Below, in pieces: positions 7,594 through 36,103 of a DNA stretch of 36,314 nt (position 1 is the first letter of the stretch; each line of letters begins with the position of its first letter). The position numbers were made by a program, and so were the translations under genes. The notes under the pieces were generated by a model. The model was not told the origin of the DNA. It did not search any database and worked only from the letters and a program-made list of their open reading frames with translations. The stretch is from a bacterium (GTDB lineage Bacteria; Bacillota_I; Bacilli_A; RF39; UBA660): contig JAUNFK010000011.1 of NCBI GenBank assembly GCA_030525085.1, positions 2,072-38,385 of the forward strand. The letters are read 5' to 3'.

Positions 7594-7621
7594 TAAAAAA
7601 AGGCTTTATTTGCCTCTTTTT
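7594..7621 (-). terminator. comK intrinsic terminator around the stop codon
   Basis: On the minus strand AAAAAGAGGC, loop AAATAAA, GCC and T7. The comK TAA (7606-7608) lies in the loop. The stem pairs GGC/GCC extended by A-T pairs. Confidence 0.75.
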
Positions 7622-8049
7622 TTAAACTTTTTTTCAAGTATTAATGATTTGCTTAATTGATTATTCATTATATTGTATGAGATATCAAATTCTAGGGTTT
7701 CTTTATTGTAGAATTCAACTAAACAGCGATCGTTTTTCTTATAAATATTACTAATATTACCTGCATTAATCCAAGAGCATTCTTTTAATCTTGGTGAACA
7801 TGTTGGAAAAAAAATGATACTTTCTTCTTCTTTGACTATGATAGGTGCTTTATATGAAATTCCTGTTAATGATTCAGTGCCTTTTGCTCTTCCTTCAATT
7901 GTACTTCCATTATAACGACAACTTTCATCCATTAGTTTATTTACTCTTTGATTAACTATATAATATTTATGTTTTTCAAAAACTAAAGTTTTATTTTTTC
8001 CATATGGCATTAGTGCAAGTGTATTTTTATTTATATTGTAATCTTTCAT
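7606..8049 (-). CDS. comK: ComK-family competence transcription factor, short form
   Basis: DNA-binding activator of the DNA-uptake (competence) regulon. Family features read in order: MDESCRYNGSTIEGRAKGT, then GISYKAPIIV, FFPTCSP, CSWINAG and a late DISYN. These parallel Bacillus ComK (DRSCRFFGSSYAGRKAGT, ISHKPPIMV, FPTLSS, CGWISH, ISYN). The protein is 147 residues against about 192 in B. subtilis. It ends right after KKFKKRGK, so the C-terminal region that carries the MecA-recognition motif FMLYPK is absent. The ATG at 8049 is preferred over the in-frame GTG at 8058 because the strong AAGGGGGT would be too close to the GTG. Three Spo0A boxes precede the promoter. It sits between dnaN and recF, where many Bacillota carry a small S4-domain gene. 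Family membership is well supported; the competence role is inferred. Confidence 0.85.
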   Translation of the reverse strand: MKDYNINKNTLALMPYGKNKTLVFEKHKYYIVNQRVNKLMDESCRYNGSTIEGRAKGTESLTGISYKAPIIVKEEESIIFFPTCSPRLKECSWINAGNISNIYKKNDRCLVEFYNKETLEFDISYNIMNNQLSKSLILEKKFKKRGK

Positions 8050-8070
8050 GTACTTCACCCCCTTGCTTTT

Positions 8071-11602: not shown

Positions 11603-12528
11603 TGAAAAAGAAGATGATATTGTTATGTGCAATGATTATGTTACTTGGTGGTTGTACAAAATATATTGCAGATGATAACAAAAAACGTGTTGTGTATGAA
11701 GTCACTGGACAGAGCTTACCATCAAATATTTTATGTAAGCCTAGTGATGATGATTTAGCTAGTATTTATGAGAAATATAAAGATAATTTAGAAGTTAATT
11801 TAGATAATTTGCCTAAGTGCGAAGATATTAAGATTTATGATAGCAAAAATTATAATGGTTTGTGGGTTCAATTATTTGTAATGCCACTTGCTTGGGTAAT
11901 TGTAAAATTAGGTATACTTGTTAAGAGTTATGGTGTATCTGTAATGATTGTTGGATTACTTATTAGATTAATTTTGATGCCATTTTCAATTAAAGCTACT
12001 AAACAAAGTCAAAATATGCAAAAGGCTCAAAAGGATTTAAATAGATTAGAAGAAAAGTATAAGAATAGAACTGATAATGATGCGATGATGCAGAAGAGTC
12101 AGGAAATGCTTGCTATTTATAAGAAGTATAATATTAGTCCTGTTGGTAGTTGTTTAATGAGTTTTATACAGCTTCCTATATTCTTTGCGTTTTTAGAAGC
12201 TATTAATAGAATCCCTGCAATATTTGAGGAGTACCTAGGAGCATTCCAATTAGGTACAACACCTTTGGTTGCTTTAAAGAGTGGTAATTATTATTATATT
12301 ATTTTGATTTTACTTATTATACTAACTACTTATTTATCTTTATCATTTAATATGAAGAGTGCAGGTAGTGCTGAGCAACAACAACAGATGAAGTTTATGA
12401 CTGGATTTATGATAGTGTTTATTTCAATTGCTTCATTTAGTTTACCAACAGCAATTGCACTATATTGGATTGTTACTAATGGATTTAGTGTAATTCAAAA
12501 TTATATTGTAAGTAAAAGGAGAAGTTAA
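11602..12528 (+). CDS. yidC: Membrane protein insertase YidC/OxaA (lipoprotein form)
   Basis: Inserts and folds membrane proteins, alone or with SecYEG. The protein is 308 residues. It starts with a lipoprotein signal MKKKMILLCAMIMLLGGC (lipobox LGGC, Cys at 18), as in Gram-positive YidC. An extracellular segment follows to about residue 85. Five hydrophobic spans are then seen, the first two around 88-130. The conserved hydrophilic-groove arginine is in VGLLIRLILMPF. A charged cytoplasmic loop (TKQSQNMQKAQKDLNRLEEKY) lies between spans. It sits between rnpA (1-nt overlap) and jag (1-nt gap). Whether it also serves sporulation like SpoIIIJ cannot be told from sequence. Confidence 0.95.
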   Translation: MKKKMILLCAMIMLLGGCTKYIADDNKKRVVYEVTGQSLPSNILCKPSDDDLASIYEKYKDNLEVNLDNLPKCEDIKIYDSKNYNGLWVQLFVMPLAWVIVKLGILVKSYGVSVMIVGLLIRLILMPFSIKATKQSQNMQKAQKDLNRLEEKYKNRTDNDAMMQKSQEMLAIYKKYNISPVGSCLMSFIQLPIFFAFLEAINRIPAIFEEYLGAFQLGTTPLVALKSGNYYYIILILLIILTTYLSLSFNMKSAGSAEQQQQMKFMTGFMIVFISIASFSLPTAIALYWIVTNGFSVIQNYIVSKRRS

Positions 12529-25547: not shown

Positions 25548-25590
25548 GAAACGAATTTCTATGGCTTAGTAAAAGTCATGGCGGAAGGAG
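25548..25590 (+). promoter_or_regulatory. rpmE leader, candidate L31 autoregulatory RNA
   Basis: The short leader contains AGAAAcgaATTTCT and a second stem ATGGCTT/AAGTCAT (25561-25579, loop AGTAA) just before GGAAGGAG. Ribosomal-protein L31 leaders are known in Bacillota; this matches in place and size but I cannot confirm the motif by eye. Confidence 0.35.
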
Positions 25591-31600: not shown

Positions 31601-31922
31601 AGAGCATGATGGACCATCAATTATTCTTGCTTATAGTCCTTGTATTGAGCAGGGAATTAAAGGCGGTATGGGTAACTCTATTAATGAAGAAAAGCTTGCT
31701 GTAATGTGTGGTTATGTGACACTTATGAGATACTTTGATGGTGGGCTTCATATTGATAGTGCTGAACCTGATTTTGAGAAATATGATGATTTCTTACGTA
31801 ATGAGGTAAGATATAATGCATTAATTTTGAAAGATAAAGAAAAAGCGAATGTGTTATTAGAAAAAAATAAAAACGCTGCAAAAGAGCGTTATGAATATTA
31901 TAAAAATTTATTAAATAAATAA
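28617..31922 (+). CDS. nifJ: Pyruvate:ferredoxin (flavodoxin) oxidoreductase, single-chain
   Basis: Oxidises pyruvate to acetyl-CoA and CO2, reducing ferredoxin; central to anaerobic energy metabolism and oxygen-sensitive. The protein is 1101 residues, slightly short for the fused form, with all domains in order. The pyruvate-binding N-terminus has YPITPSSPM. Then come the gamma region and two [4Fe-4S] ferredoxin motifs, CIECGMCNIVCP (about 662) and CTACGLCANICP (about 711). The TPP domain has GACAGCGETPY (about 770), ATGCSSIYG, GGDGWAYDIG (about 898) and the Cys of SPCIEQG near 1006. GGTGAT precedes the ATG. It has its own promoter and is followed by a convergent small RNA gene. Confidence 0.96.
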   Translation: MKVVDGCTACAKMAYNFSELSFIYPITPSSPMASQIDLMGSENQKNVFGDTVNVIEMQSEAGAAGAMHGALNAGVLASTFTASQGLLLMIPNMYKMAGEMLPGVIHVAARSLSTHALSIFGDHQDVYATRATGFCILASTNVQDAYNLAMVAHLSAIEGSLPFLHFFDGFRTSHEYNQIELISDKDIKSMINYEKVNEFRNRALNSGKAITKGTAQNEDIYFQVTEARNKDYLKMPDIVNSYMKKLNKIAGTNYKPFNYYGSKNAKKVIVAMGSVCDTIKNTIDMCKNDEYGLIEVHLYRPFSVDYLKKVLPKSVRKIAVLDRTKESGSAGEPLYLDVLSALSDEKIKIVHGRYGLSSKNTTPSDIYDVYKMLDTKLVNDFVIGIDDDITNLSLKHYEFNYKENYKEFKIFGFGSDGLVSASKDMLKILGESSFVQGYFEYDSKKSGGVTISHLRTSKKLIKAPYYVTNPSLVVVSKDEYFKKFDCLDGLVTGGTLLVNTYRNEEEFNKFVPNEVKKYLIDNNIKVYLIDAGMLASKYGISGKISLIMESAILNLFGFADYEKVLIKNVKKRFFTKGEDIVKANISCIKESKYYLKECKIDSASTYDMKYGNTVFDYINSRRGNQLSTRDVYEMRDGTTRGGTSALEKRSMASMVPKWDKNRCIECGMCNIVCPHAVIRPFVIDKNDKYASAAKDSLDKKNKFIVAVSERDCTACGLCANICPVKCLSWGEIDDKNQRIADDLFKNYENDVTSANNIKEVSLKKPLFEFSGACAGCGETPYIKLLTQIVGKRLVIANATGCSSIYGASCPSMPYNVSWGSSLFEDNAEYGYGMLRTYDKLHARALKELEANKVAASLYKFVKDNENDYEKINAVLDEAKKYVSPDLVNYLTPKSVWTIGGDGWAYDIGFGGLDHVLSSNKKVRIMVLDTEVYSNTGGQSSKSTHIGAVAEFADMGKDTYKKDLFKICMGYPNVYVGQISLGANMMQAIKTIKEAEEHDGPSIILAYSPCIEQGIKGGMGNSINEEKLAVMCGYVTLMRYFDGGLHIDSAEPDFEKYDDFLRNEVRYNALILKDKEKANVLLEKNKNAAKERYEYYKNLLNK

Positions 31923-32017
31923 AAAAATGGAGGCTGCTTAATAAGCAGCCTCAAAGAATAAAAAGGGGTTGGCTAGTGTGATACTAGCACCAATTCGCCT
32001 ATAAGTGAATTGGTGAT
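31921..32017 (-). ncRNA. Unannotated small RNA 1, C-rich linker type
   Basis: On the minus strand a complete transcription unit is visible with no reading frame. From a start near 32017 the RNA folds hairpin 1 (GAATTGGTG 32007-32015 with CACCAATTC 31988-31996, 9 bp, 10-nt loop). It is followed directly by hairpin 2 (ACTAG/CTAGT, 31973-31987). Next comes an unpaired linker containing CCAACCCCTTTTT (C4 at 31965-31968). It ends in a perfect 10-bp GC-rich terminator stem (31930-31952, 3-nt loop) followed by T7. Length is about 97 nt. The U-run polarity fixes the strand. I do not recognise an Rfam family. The exposed C-run beside a terminator resembles RsaE/RoxS-type sRNAs that pair with Shine-Dalgarno sequences; that function is inference. 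Confidence 0.75.
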
Positions 32018-32021
32018 TTAT

Positions 32022-32050
32022 ATACTAACCGAATGAGACACTTTTGTCAA
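32022..32050 (-). promoter_or_regulatory. Promoter of small RNA 1
   Basis: Minus strand consensus TTGACA (32045-32050), 17-bp spacer, TAGTAT (32022-32027). Confidence 0.8.
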
Positions 32051-32089
32051 GCATTTTTAATAAAAAAATAATAAAAGATGGTGATTACA

Positions 32090-34066
32090 ATGCTAGAAGA
32101 TATAAAAGGAATTGGACCTAAAAGTATACTTGCTTTAAAAGCACTTAATTTATATACAAAGGATGATGTTATTAATTATTTTCCTTATAGATATAATGTT
32201 TATACACCAGTTAAATTAAGTGAGTGCAGTGAGGGTGATACGTGCACAATTACAGGATATGTTGAGTCTGTACCTAAAGTATTTTTTATAAGAAAGAATC
32301 TTAATAAATTATCTTTTGCATTTAATACGGGAAGTGAGTTAGTAAATGTTACTATCTTTAATAGAGCTTATTTAAAACCAAATATTAGAATTAAAAGTTA
32401 TATATCAGTAATTGGTAAATATAATAGAAAATCTAATACATTTATGGCGAGTGATATAAAGCTTACACCAATAACTAAAACGGTGATTGAGCCTGTTTAT
32501 CATTTGAATCAAGGGATAAAGAGAAGCAATTTCAAAAAATTAGTTGATGAGATTTTGGATAATACAGTAGAAATTAAAAGTAATGTACCTGATTATTTAA
32601 TAGAAAAGTATAATTTTGTTAATAAAAAAGAAGCAGTTACTAATGTGCATAAACCAAAAGATATTAACAGTTTGAAAAAAGCAGATTTGCATTTAATATA
32701 TGAAGAATTATTTACTTTTATGTTAAAGGTAAGTTATTTAAAAGAAAAGAATGCAAATGACGGTAAGTTTAACGTTAAGAGCTTTGATGAAGATAAGGTT
32801 AATGATTTTATTAGTAGTTTGCCATTTAGTTTAACAGATGGACAAATGCAGGCCGTAGAGGATATTAAGGGGGACTTTTTATCTAAGAAGAAAATGAATA
32901 GATTAATCTTAGGTGATGTTGGTAGTGGTAAGACGATAGTTTCTTTTATAGCACTTTATATGAATATGCTTGCTGGGCATCAAGGCGTGCTTATGGCACC
33001 GACTGAAATATTAACAGTCCAGCATTATAATAATATGACGAGTCTTTTTGGAGATAAGTTAAATATTCAGTTACTTACAAGTTCAACTAAAAAGAGTGAA
33101 AGAAATAAGATTTTACAAAAATTAAAAGATGGTGAAACTCATGTTTTAATTGGTACTCATTCTTTACTTAATGATGAACTTGTTTATAATAATCTTGGGC
33201 TTGTTATTACAGATGAGCAACATAGATTTGGTGTTAATCAAAGACAGATTTTACAAGAAAAAGGAAAAGATGTTGACGTGTTATATATGAGTGCAACACC
33301 AATTCCTAGAACGCTTGCTTTAACTATTTATGGCGATATGGATATTACGGAAATTAGGACTAAACCAGGTGGCAGAAAAGAAATTATTACTAAAATTTTT
33401 AAAAATAGTGAACTTAAAAATGTTTTAGAGAAGATGTTAGATGAAATTAAAGACGGGCATCAAATATACGTCGTAGCTCCACTTATTGATGATGAAGAAG
33501 ATGAAAAGATGAATGTTACTTCATTAAAAGATAAGTTTGATGTAGCATTTAATGGAATGGTTCCTACTGGCGTATTGCACGGAAAAATGAAACCTAATCA
33601 AAAAGATGAAGTAATGAATAGTTTTAAAAATGGTGATACAAAAATATTAATATCAACAACTGTAATTGAAGTCGGCGTTGATGTTAAAAATGCGACGATG
33701 ATGGTTATTTTTAATGCTGAAAGATTTGGCCTTGCTACACTTCATCAGTTAAGAGGCAGAGTTGGTAGAAATGACATGCAAAGTTATTGCTATTTGATAA
33801 GTGATTATGATGCTGAAAGGTTAAAAGTTTTAGAGCAGAGTAATGATGGATTTTATATCAGTGAGCAAGATTTTAAGCTAAGAGGTGGCGGAGACATTTT
33901 TGGAATTAGGCAAAGTGGTGAACAAAGCTTTAAAATTGCAAATTTAAATAGGGATTATAAAATTTTAATGCAGTGTAAAAGTGATGCAGAGGAATTTTTA
34001 AAGAGCAAGAATTTAGATGATTATAAAGTACAGAAGGAAATACTTGAGAACTTAACTATTGCTTAG
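32090..34066 (+). CDS. recG: ATP-dependent DNA helicase RecG
   Basis: Branch-migration helicase that remodels stalled replication forks and Holliday junctions. The protein is 658 residues from the ATG at 32090, 4 nt after GGTGAT; an in-frame ATG at 32078 lies before that site and is less likely. The N-terminus LEDIKGIGPKSILAL and the wedge (OB) domain with VTIFNRAYL near residue 89 are present. Walker A is GDVGSGKT near 281, the DEQH box is ITDEQHRFGVNQRQ, motif III is SATPIPRTLAL, and motif VI is QLRGRVGRN. The C-terminal TRG region FKLRGGGDIFGIRQSG couples ATPase to branch migration. No convincing separate promoter was seen between the small RNA promoter and the gene. Confidence 0.97.
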   Translation: MLEDIKGIGPKSILALKALNLYTKDDVINYFPYRYNVYTPVKLSECSEGDTCTITGYVESVPKVFFIRKNLNKLSFAFNTGSELVNVTIFNRAYLKPNIRIKSYISVIGKYNRKSNTFMASDIKLTPITKTVIEPVYHLNQGIKRSNFKKLVDEILDNTVEIKSNVPDYLIEKYNFVNKKEAVTNVHKPKDINSLKKADLHLIYEELFTFMLKVSYLKEKNANDGKFNVKSFDEDKVNDFISSLPFSLTDGQMQAVEDIKGDFLSKKKMNRLILGDVGSGKTIVSFIALYMNMLAGHQGVLMAPTEILTVQHYNNMTSLFGDKLNIQLLTSSTKKSERNKILQKLKDGETHVLIGTHSLLNDELVYNNLGLVITDEQHRFGVNQRQILQEKGKDVDVLYMSATPIPRTLALTIYGDMDITEIRTKPGGRKEIITKIFKNSELKNVLEKMLDEIKDGHQIYVVAPLIDDEEDEKMNVTSLKDKFDVAFNGMVPTGVLHGKMKPNQKDEVMNSFKNGDTKILISTTVIEVGVDVKNATMMVIFNAERFGLATLHQLRGRVGRNDMQSYCYLISDYDAERLKVLEQSNDGFYISEQDFKLRGGGDIFGIRQSGEQSFKIANLNRDYKILMQCKSDAEEFLKSKNLDDYKVQKEILENLTIA

Positions 34067-34102: not shown

Positions 34103-34705
34103 ATGAATAGAAAAGAATTAAAAGAAAAAGCTAAAGCTATGATTAAAGGTCATGTGTGGGATTTAGTATTACCATTTGTTATTGTGTCTTTAATAAATTC
34201 TCTTATTGGAGCACTTTTTGGAGTAAATAGTGATAATATTTATGTTAGTACAAGTGCACAAATGTTATCAACTATTATTACGTTACCACTTAGTTTTGGA
34301 GCTACTGCTTATATAATGAAATTTGTTAGAGGCGAAGAATGTGATATTAAAGGAATGTTTCAATATTACAAAATGTTTGGACCAATATTTGGTGTATGGT
34401 TTTTAACTTCACTATTTTCAACTTTATGGGCATTACTTCTTATTATTCCTGGTATTATTGCTGCGATAAGTTACTCAATGGTAAATTTATTAATGATTGA
34501 TGGAAACACAAATCCGATGAATTGCATTAGAAAAAGTAAGGAAATGATGAACGGATACAAGATGGATTATTTTATGTTAGTTCTTAGTTTCTTTGGATGG
34601 TTATTACTTGGAATTTTTACTTTAGGAATTTTATATATTTGGCTTGTTCCTTACATGAATGTAACATTTATTTTATATTATGAAGAACTTAAAAAAGTTA
34701 AATAA
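34103..34705 (+). CDS. DUF975-family membrane protein
   Basis: Integral membrane protein of 200 residues with about five hydrophobic spans. The DUF975 pattern is visible. An N-terminal amphipathic MNRKELKEKAKAMIKGHVW is followed by a glycine-containing first span. A central segment has IIPGIIAAISYSMVNLLMID, then NPMNCIRKSKEMMNGYK between spans. The C-terminal span ends YMNVTFILYYEEL. Function is unknown in all organisms I know. GGTGAT lies 3 nt before the ATG. It appears to be monocistronic, with its own promoter. Confidence 0.85.
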   Translation: MNRKELKEKAKAMIKGHVWDLVLPFVIVSLINSLIGALFGVNSDNIYVSTSAQMLSTIITLPLSFGATAYIMKFVRGEECDIKGMFQYYKMFGPIFGVWFLTSLFSTLWALLLIIPGIIAAISYSMVNLLMIDGNTNPMNCIRKSKEMMNGYKMDYFMLVLSFFGWLLLGIFTLGILYIWLVPYMNVTFILYYEELKKVK

Positions 34706-34738
34706 TTTGGCCTTTTTGTAAATTATTAAAAATTGTGA

Positions 34739-34767
34739 TTGACAAAGATTAAAAATTCGTTTATGAT
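34739..34767 (+). promoter_or_regulatory. Promoter of small RNA 2
   Basis: Consensus TTGACA (34739-34744), 17-bp spacer, TATGAT (34762-34767). Confidence 0.8.
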
Positions 34768-34773
34768 TATTTT

Positions 34774-34869
34774 AGCATGGTAGAGATATCATGCTGATAA
34801 CCTTAACGAATTCAATGTTAAGGTGTATCAACCAAAACCCCCTGAAGGAGCCGAAAGGCTCCACTTTTT
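34774..34869 (+). ncRNA. Unannotated small RNA 2, C-rich linker type
   Basis: A free-standing plus-strand unit. From a start near 34774 the RNA forms hairpin 1 (AGCATG 34774-34779 with CATGCT 34790-34795, 10-nt loop). Hairpin 2 is ACCTTAAC 34800-34807 with GTTAAGGT 34817-34824, extended by GATA/TATC. Then comes an unpaired ACCAAAACCCCCTGAA (C5 at 34838-34842). The terminator is GGAGCC-GAAA-GGCTCC (34847-34862) with a T5 run. No reading frame of note. Length about 96 nt. The plan matches small RNA 1 (two hairpins, C-run, terminator), although the stems differ in sequence. I do not recognise an Rfam family. The element with the integrase begins just beyond its 3' end. Confidence 0.78.
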
Positions 34870-34960
34870 GTTTGTTTTATAAGGGTTTTCTATAAATATT
34901 GTAGAACGCTACCCATCATCTGCCTATCACAACCTATGGTTTATATAAGTTTAATATAGT
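34870..34960. other. Spacer between small RNA 2 and the integrase, possible attachment-site region
   Basis: No gene. An attachment core would be expected between the integrase stop and the chromosomal gene, so it may lie here or in the small RNA terminator. I cannot identify a core because the other end of the element is outside the window. Confidence 0.3.
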
Positions 34961-36103
34961 TTATTCGGAAGACTTTTCATTAAAGTCTTTTTCTAATGTG
35001 TCAAAGAATTTTGGTACATTTGCAAGATCTTTTTTAAACATATGAGTATAAGTTTCTAGTGTTTCAGTAGTTTCGGAATGACCTAAAAAATTAGATACAG
35101 CAGTTATTGGAGCAGAGCCAGATATTAAGGCTGATGCACACGAATGTCTAAAGTCGTGTAATCTAATTCTTCTTACTCCAGCCTTTTCAGCATACTTATC
35201 TCTATAGAAATACATTCTACCTGTAGCCATTGGAACATCATCACCAAGTACAAACCAAGTTTGTTTGAATTTTGCTATTCTTTCATTTGATTTTTTAAGT
35301 TCTGCTAAATCATTTAGTAGAGTAGTTGCGATTGGAATTGTTCTATTTGATGCTTCTGTCTTAGTGCTAGAAATATACCATTCTGTACTAGCATTAGAAT
35401 TAGAGGGATTTAATACTTGTTGAGAAACAGTTAAAAGTTTATTTTTAAAGTCTATATGTTTCCACTGTAATCCTCTTGCTTCAGACCTTCTTAATCCACA
35501 ATAATATAATAATTCAAAGAAACATTTATATCTTAAATCATCAACTACTGAAATAAATTTAAAGAATTCTTCAGGTTCGTAAAAATCCATTTCTTTCTTC
35601 AATGCTCCTGGAGTTTTAAAAGGCTCTAATTTGTTATAAAACTTTCTTAAATTAAAATCCCATTGTTTTTCGGCAAAGTTAATAACTTGCTTTATAAATT
35701 TTTGAATATCAGTTTTATATCTATCACAGAGATTTGTTTTATTAATTTGTGCTCTCCATTTTTGATATAAATCCCAATCTAAGTTTACTAATTCTACATT
35801 ATCTAGTAATCCCATATATTTGATTCTATCTCTATATGTCTTAAGAGTAGAATCTTTTATTTTATCTTTTTGATATTCGTAATATATAGTGTAGGCTTCT
35901 TTAAATGTCATATGTGGATTTACTTCAACATCTTTATATTTATTTAAATATTCTTTTTCGGCTTGTATTGCTTCATTTTCAGTCATATAAGCTTTTGATT
36001 GATATTGATGTCTTTTACCATCTAAACCTTTACTATATTGTATAAATACCCATGATCTTCCATCTTTTGTTATTTTATTTTCTTTAAGTTTTCTTACGGA
36101 CAT
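34961..36103 (-). CDS. Tyrosine recombinase/integrase of an integrative element
   Basis: Site-specific recombinase for insertion and excision of a prophage or conjugative element. The protein is 380 residues. The N-terminal arm-binding domain with an AP2-like beta pattern covers about 10-45 (SWVFIQYSKGLDGK). A core-binding SAM-like domain covers about 65-160. The catalytic domain has R205 (GLRRSEARGL), K248 (SSTKTEASNR), H316-x-x-R319 (LHDFRHS), H342 (LGHSE) and nucleophile Y352 (ETYTHMF), so the full R-K-H-R-H-Y set is present. AAAGGAGG precedes the ATG. It is read against its chromosomal neighbours. A 9-bp inverted repeat lies in its leader. Confidence 0.95.
   Translation of the reverse strand: MSVRKLKENKITKDGRSWVFIQYSKGLDGKRHQYQSKAYMTENEAIQAEKEYLNKYKDVEVNPHMTFKEAYTIYYEYQKDKIKDSTLKTYRDRIKYMGLLDNVELVNLDWDLYQKWRAQINKTNLCDRYKTDIQKFIKQVINFAEKQWDFNLRKFYNKLEPFKTPGALKKEMDFYEPEEFFKFISVVDDLRYKCFFELLYYCGLRRSEARGLQWKHIDFKNKLLTVSQQVLNPSNSNASTEWYISSTKTEASNRTIPIATTLLNDLAELKKSNERIAKFKQTWFVLGDDVPMATGRMYFYRDKYAEKAGVRRIRLHDFRHSCASALISGSAPITAVSNFLGHSETTETLETYTHMFKKDLANVPKFFDTLEKDFNEKSSE

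Follow-up and report, generated by a model that had tools for sequence, protein, structure and literature searches.

The sRNA2 locus

The window, i.e., the whole 36,314-nt stretch of DNA analyzed here, carries toward its right end a recG gene flanked by two small RNA genes, sRNA1 and sRNA2, followed by a tyrosine integrase gene that is convergent with sRNA2. Far to the left, between dnaN and recF, lies a homologue of the competence gene comK. The coordinates of these features are given in Table 1. Rfam also matches a bacterial small SRP RNA at 1549–1628 (−) and an L31-Firmicutes leader at 25559–25590 (+).

Table 1. Features of the window that bear on sRNA2, its proposed partner and its candidate target
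Feature	Position	Strand	Basis or remark
comK homologue, candidate target	7606–8049	−	PF06338, E = 2e-38
AGGGGG Shine-Dalgarno sequence of comK	8058–8063	−	8 nt ahead of ATG
sRNA1 terminator	31930–31952	−	
sRNA1	about 32016–31922	−	divergent from recG; between recG and the gene ending at 31922
sRNA1 promoter	near 32050–32022	−	
recG, between sRNA1 and sRNA2	32078–34066	+	RecG by our own reading of the sequence; synteny in relatives
DUF975 membrane protein, in the recG-sRNA2 interval	34103–34705	+	PF06161
sRNA2 promoter, TTGACA-17-TATGAT	34739–34767	+	same spacing 5′ of most full copies in relatives
sRNA2 transcript, predicted ends	34774–34870	+	fold z; model R1 matches in family genomes
sRNA2 hairpin 1, 9-bp stem, GAGA loop	34774–34795	+	predicted fold
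sRNA2 hairpin 2, covarying stem	34796–34829	+	predicted fold, alignment
Unpaired linker AACCAAAACCCCCTGAA, proposed seed of sRNA2	34830–34846	+	fold, alignment, consensus fold
CCCCCTGAA, core of the seed and putative integrase att crossover core	34838–34846	+	full and half copies, terminator swapping
sRNA2 terminator; judged by comparison, the side of attL that the element supplied	34847–34870	+	terminator search, relatives
Tyrosine integrase	34961–36103	−	PF00589; C-terminal end faces the att site

An earlier note on this DNA, made without database searches, had proposed sRNA2 from its promoter, its hairpins, an exposed C-rich stretch and a GNRA-loop terminator. The proposed promoter is the top of 22 promoter-like sites in the scanned segment from 32.0 to 36.3 kb and the only one there to score 11/12; the total number of such sites in the segment is not above that of shuffled sequences. 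The terminator is indeed an intrinsic one, GGAGCC-GAAA-GGCTCC at 34847–34862 with a T tail. The 97-nt transcript folds to −35.0 kcal/mol, compared with −15.9 ± 2.7 for shuffles (z = −7.05), and its predicted fold has three hairpins and leaves the C-rich stretch, AACCAAAACCCCCUGAA, unpaired ahead of the terminator. One detail needs correction: the loop of hairpin 1, given as 10 nt, is a 4-nt GAGA in the predicted fold.

At sRNA2, Rfam searches at gathering and permissive thresholds return no relevant family (the permissive search of 34600–35000 gives a chance match, E = 6.4), and a tRNA/tmRNA search finds neither at this site. By comparative sequence evidence, sRNA2 is a real, unannotated RNA gene, and we infer that it is expressed.

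Conservation of sRNA2

When 193 genomes of the window's family were searched at the DNA level, many relatives came up. A covariance model, R1, built from an alignment of 27 sequences and used at a cut-off of E ≤ 0.001, matches 142 of the 193; the 51 genomes in which sRNA2 goes undetected reflect draft assemblies, strict filters or real loss. Among 122 genomes from elsewhere in the class R1 matches only one, and the 3-kb contig that bears the match is possibly misbinned. At least 114 stretches of GTDB genomes contain an exact match to the 19-mer CAACCAAAACCCCCTGAAG. The carriers among the matches listed are mostly named as uncultured Bacilli, Erysipelotrichaceae, Tenericutes and Mycoplasma, with one Candidatus Caccenecus; we take the carriers for members of the RF39-like Bacilli. 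A few 19-mer matches (L114, L125 and similar ones) were set aside as chance or as something other than sRNA2.

In relatives, the promoter of full-length copies is at a similar distance, and these copies usually sit 90–150 nt 3′ of recG or, as in the window, after recG-DUF975. Within the 27-sequence alignment the C5 run is invariant and the rest of the linker is mostly invariant or nearly so, the C run is unpaired in the consensus fold, and all nine pairs of hairpin 2 are kept despite changes on both sides. The earlier note had staked its proposal on a conserved and unpaired C run, which is what the alignment gives. Its likening of the plan to that of RsaE/RoxS also holds at the level of prediction, i.e., sRNA2 is an independent sRNA whose exposed, C-rich seed could mask Shine-Dalgarno sequences.

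sRNA1 and its relation to sRNA2

We take the other small RNA of the earlier note to be the minus-strand RNA that diverges from recG, sRNA1. Its fold has a z of −7.84 against shuffles. Its core, CTAGTATCACACTAGNCAACCCC, is found, usually once, in 166 of the 193 family genomes, where the reversed control has zero matches; in a comparison across the class, 42 of 46 family genomes have the core versus 0 of 300 others. The stem of the sRNA1 terminator is variable, yet UCAGGGGG is present in 77 of 100 distinct copies, mostly as YUCAGGGGG, and in none of the shuffles. This UCAGGGGG is complementary to CCCCCUGA of sRNA2, with a predicted duplex of about −18 to −22 kcal/mol, and in L207 and L208, where sRNA2 reads CCCCCUGAGA, sRNA1 has the matching change UCUCAGGGGG.

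The two RNAs had been put forward as one C-rich family of shared plan and unrelated stems, each with a C run just before its terminator. Their lack of sequence homology stands, as does the placement of the C5 run in sRNA2; in sRNA1, about 14 nt separate the C4 run from the terminator that follows. The single family is not supported. Since each RNA is conserved on its own, one on either side of recG, and since in most genomes the sRNA1 terminator complements the sRNA2 seed, they look like partners, a regulator and its sponge, rather than paralogs.

The sRNA1 terminator of the window genome reads GGCTGCTTATTAAGCAGCC and lacks UCAGGGGG with its GGGGG, an indication that the anti-seed feature is lost in this lineage. 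The GGGGG is likewise missing from sRNA1 in a few further lineages, e.g., L069, L128, L132, L143 and L191. In L201 (G097), at 12372, sRNA1 lies within about 260 bp of sRNA2 with no recG in between.

A probable attachment site within the sRNA2 seed

In relatives, full sRNA2 copies have promoterless half copies downstream of them in the same orientation; the half copies start at CCCCCTGAA and have terminators of their own. The same terminator is found on unrelated 5′ halves, and the identities of the 5′ and 3′ parts are uncorrelated (r = 0.03; 1500 pairs), which together place the crossover within CCCCCTGAA. The 5′ and 3′ halves of sRNA2 assort independently because each insert supplies its own terminator. 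This arrangement supports CCCCCTGAA as the attachment core on which the integrase would act. Insertion would then leave, at attL, the 5′ part of sRNA2 joined to the element's terminator and, at attR, the element's arm joined to an older terminator. That sRNA2 lies beside the integrase, as the earlier note had remarked, follows from its C run and terminator being the attachment site of that integrase; this role of CCCCCTGAA, as well as the candidate target comK within the window, had been missed. Similar half copies 200–300 nt 5′ of recG were considered as att remnants and rejected, being the sRNA1 terminator, with its anti-seed, read on the opposite strand.

Might the conserved sequence be mainly the end of a mobile element, with integrases keeping the block from CCCCCTGAA to the terminator and the upstream RNA unimportant? 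Promoterless half copies are common, and the 3′ part of sRNA2 is the section most alike between family genomes in the DNA search, both of which fit such a reading. We nevertheless hold it to be highly improbable, as conservation extends to the promoter, to hairpin 2 with its covariation, to the linker AACCAAAA that precedes the core and to the position downstream of recG, and these are exactly what the half copies lack.

Thirty-two segments are bounded by att copies, 11 with an integrase (8.3–16.8 kb) and 21 without one (0.15–6.2 kb). The large element of L214 encodes a Phage_integrase, a Mob_Pre relaxase, an AAA_25 RepA-like ATPase and an HTH repressor, with a Gabija pair as cargo, and its gene order is common to several other large elements. 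Complete relatives such as this one have the integrase, the relaxase and the att sites at both ends that define an integrative and mobilizable element (IME). The window integrase shares 80% identity with its counterpart in a 15.9-kb element of L210. In the window's own element, the integrase and the near att site are present and the contig stops at 36314; the far att site lies beyond the contig end and is absent from the assembly, so that the element is a candidate IME by virtue of its integrase.

In gene content, the integrase-less cassettes are mostly defense genes. They include type II restriction-modification pairs, a DUF1016/YhcG nuclease, Fic, HipA-HIRAN, IrrE-Fic, AbiEii with a TOTE primase-helicase, and an AAA ATPase with a reverse transcriptase, and their genes are mostly co-oriented with sRNA2. 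Several small segments have the attR left arm in common with large ones (e0/e20, e3/e15, e6/e21 and e14/e13), which makes mobilization in trans likely. The sRNA2 site is a family-wide insertion hotspot for defense genes, with integrase-less cassettes down to about 1 kb.

Two inserted segments stand in tandem at the sRNA2 att site in L185 (13025–15766), L213 (3356–16990) and L219 (227–2728); these arrays include integrase-less cassettes of 1.1–1.4 kb. A 147-bp segment of L227 (557–704), between two att sites, has arms but no gene and resembles an empty cassette. Just 3′ of the terminator, 29 of 135 full copies (e.g., in L008, L014, L019 and L013) have pairs of tandem TAGGYRNC direct repeats, which may be arm-binding sites of the integrase; the window has none after its sRNA2 terminator. 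A single viral contig carries the site (L177, IMG/VR 3300031555_005889), with a full sRNA2 and a convergent integrase. Phages therefore seem not to be the main users, and this contig may come from a chromosome or element that was filed there in error, and not from a phage.

comK as the candidate target

Of 58 family genomes, 55 have a comK orthologue, an indication that natural competence may exist among these small-genome Bacilli. The genome of the window has about nine genes with AGGGGG shortly 5′ of the ATG, and comK is among them. Across the family, GGGGG lies within about 50 nt 5′ of comK in 32 of 55 cases, as against 23 of 1274 other genes of the fetched loci (Fisher 1e-34), and is lacking in the other 23 comK genes. 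Upstream of the comparison genes it is found in 0 of 110 for recG, 1 of 35 for DUF975 and 0 of 39 for the integrase.

The sRNA2 linker is predicted to pair with the comK upstream regions better than 298 of 300 shuffled linkers do. Complementarity between sRNA2 and the Shine-Dalgarno region of comK thus has statistical support at the sequence level. The sRNA1 linker shows no specificity for comK beyond that of shuffles, 96 of 300 being as good, as opposed to 2 of 300 for sRNA2. This difference bears on a scheme in which sRNA1 would be the main regulator, its AACCCC pairing with G-rich Shine-Dalgarno sequences, and in which the GGGGG of its terminator would inactivate sRNA2 or be unrelated. Such a scheme draws on the stricter conservation of sRNA1 and on the ability of AACCCC to pair with AGGGG; given the shuffle result, and given that selection for five Gs is not expected from a C4 run, we regard it as improbable and keep sRNA2 as the candidate regulator of comK.

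The G5 upstream of comK is commoner where sRNA1 has its GGGGG (23 of 31 vs. 8 of 21, p = 0.02) and where sRNA2 is detected (27 of 40 vs. 5 of 15, p = 0.03); both tests ignore phylogeny and missing contigs, and the two associations are suggestive only.

A wider role for sRNA2 has also to be considered, namely that of a general C-rich riboregulator of metabolism, like RoxS or FsrA, with many lineage-specific targets of which comK would be one, or incidental, and with the use as an att site a separate matter. Many targets are usual for C-rich sRNAs (PMC8216469), and the other genes of the window genome with AGGGGG near the start include those for an NMT1-like binding protein, a cotE-like protein and others. 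Yet G5 is kept in relatives for comK and not for the other candidates tested: the cotE-like gene, with G5 in 2 of 29 relatives, and a 302-aa gene that has G5 in the window genome, with 2 of 15, were both rejected as conserved co-targets. Moreover, AGGGGG shows no overall enrichment in the window genome (16 + 15 sites vs. 22 + 23 for the reversed pattern), so that a broad regulon is not indicated and a many-target sRNA2 is disfavored. We judge a general riboregulator unlikely and retain comK as the principal candidate target.

Proposed mechanism

We propose the following scheme, in which sRNA2 restrains comK, sRNA1 titrates sRNA2, and CCCCCTGAA is an att core at which terminators are swapped; we give the whole a probability of roughly 0.6. 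The unpaired CCCCCUGAA of sRNA2 would pair with Shine-Dalgarno sequences of the G5 type, above all that of comK, and the competence regulator ComK would thereby be held down. In most genomes sRNA1 would titrate sRNA2 through the UCAGGGGG of its terminator, a function presumably lost in the window's lineage. Independently of this regulation, a family of tyrosine integrases would use CCCCCTGAA as crossover core, and IMEs, together with integrase-less, defense-rich cassettes having the same att arms, would insert exactly there. Each insert would bring a new terminator, such that sRNA2 retains its promoter, hairpins and seed while its 3′ end is exchanged; the seed is intact in the full copies seen.

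If the scheme is correct, these hardly cultured Bacilli have a deeply conserved set of sRNA, partner RNA and target, with comK as a concrete target open to testing, and the complementary RNA across recG adds a layer of counter-control. Terminator swapping explains how one terminator comes to stand on unrelated RNA 5′ halves, a pattern that would mislead the ordinary building of RNA families.

Comparison with known systems

A literature search on the broader question of integration at sRNA genes turned up nothing useful; the comparisons that follow are with individual systems. The large elements resemble MobV-type IMEs, as L214 has the integrase, Mob_Pre relaxase, RepA-like ATPase, HTH repressor and cargo. 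They differ in that the att site is the junction of an sRNA seed and its terminator, and in that integrase-less cassettes share the arms. The arrays recall integrons, being made of integrase-less, mostly co-oriented cassettes that each end in a hairpin-bearing recombination site. Here, however, the hairpin is an intrinsic terminator. A dedicated IntI beside an attI is not what is found: the integrases lie within the large elements and match Phage_integrase, and at most cassette loci no integrase is seen nearby.

Members of the RoxS/RsaE family have metabolic targets and are controlled by Rex or SrrAB. RoxS is not known to us to serve as an att site. The likeness to RoxS/RsaE with RosA/RsaI lies in the C-rich unpaired seed directed, by prediction, at Shine-Dalgarno sequences, and in a second, stand-alone RNA with a G-rich complement. 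The differences are that RoxS regulates central metabolism, that sRNA2 matches no Rfam model, that the G run of sRNA1 lies within a terminator hairpin, and that the pair flanks recG. RosA, the sponge for RoxS in B. subtilis, is a working precedent for such a pair of sRNAs (PMC8216469).

The closest parallel is pneumococcal. The csRNAs of the pneumococcus target comC, which provides a precedent for sRNA control of competence (PMC4507080). CiaR-controlled promoters are a mark of that family. Prophage phiOXC141 inserts in csRNA3 at attBOXC and replaces its 3′ stem-loop, generating csRNA3L; the insertion strengthens the repression of competence, explained as self-defense of the element (PMC9764711). 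As proposed for sRNA2, the gene of a competence-restraining sRNA is the attachment site, the 3′ stem-loop is element-borne, and the working hybrid RNA keeps the native promoter and 5′ part. The bacteria are different and no homology is detected; the proposed target is comK rather than comC; the inserts are mobilizable elements and defense cassettes rather than a prophage; and at sRNA2 the seed itself is the crossover core. For csRNA3L, insertion is shown to change activity; for sRNA2, such a change is conjectural. We tentatively suggest, as a possibility that falls short of even odds, that elements replacing the 3′ end of sRNA2 may tune the control of comK and so limit the transformation that would delete them, in convergence with csRNA3L. 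If true, sRNA2 would be an independent parallel to the pneumococcal editing of a competence-controlling sRNA by a mobile element, the use of such sRNA genes as attachment sites would point to a general strategy, and a general rule of conflict between mobile elements and transformation could be put to the test.
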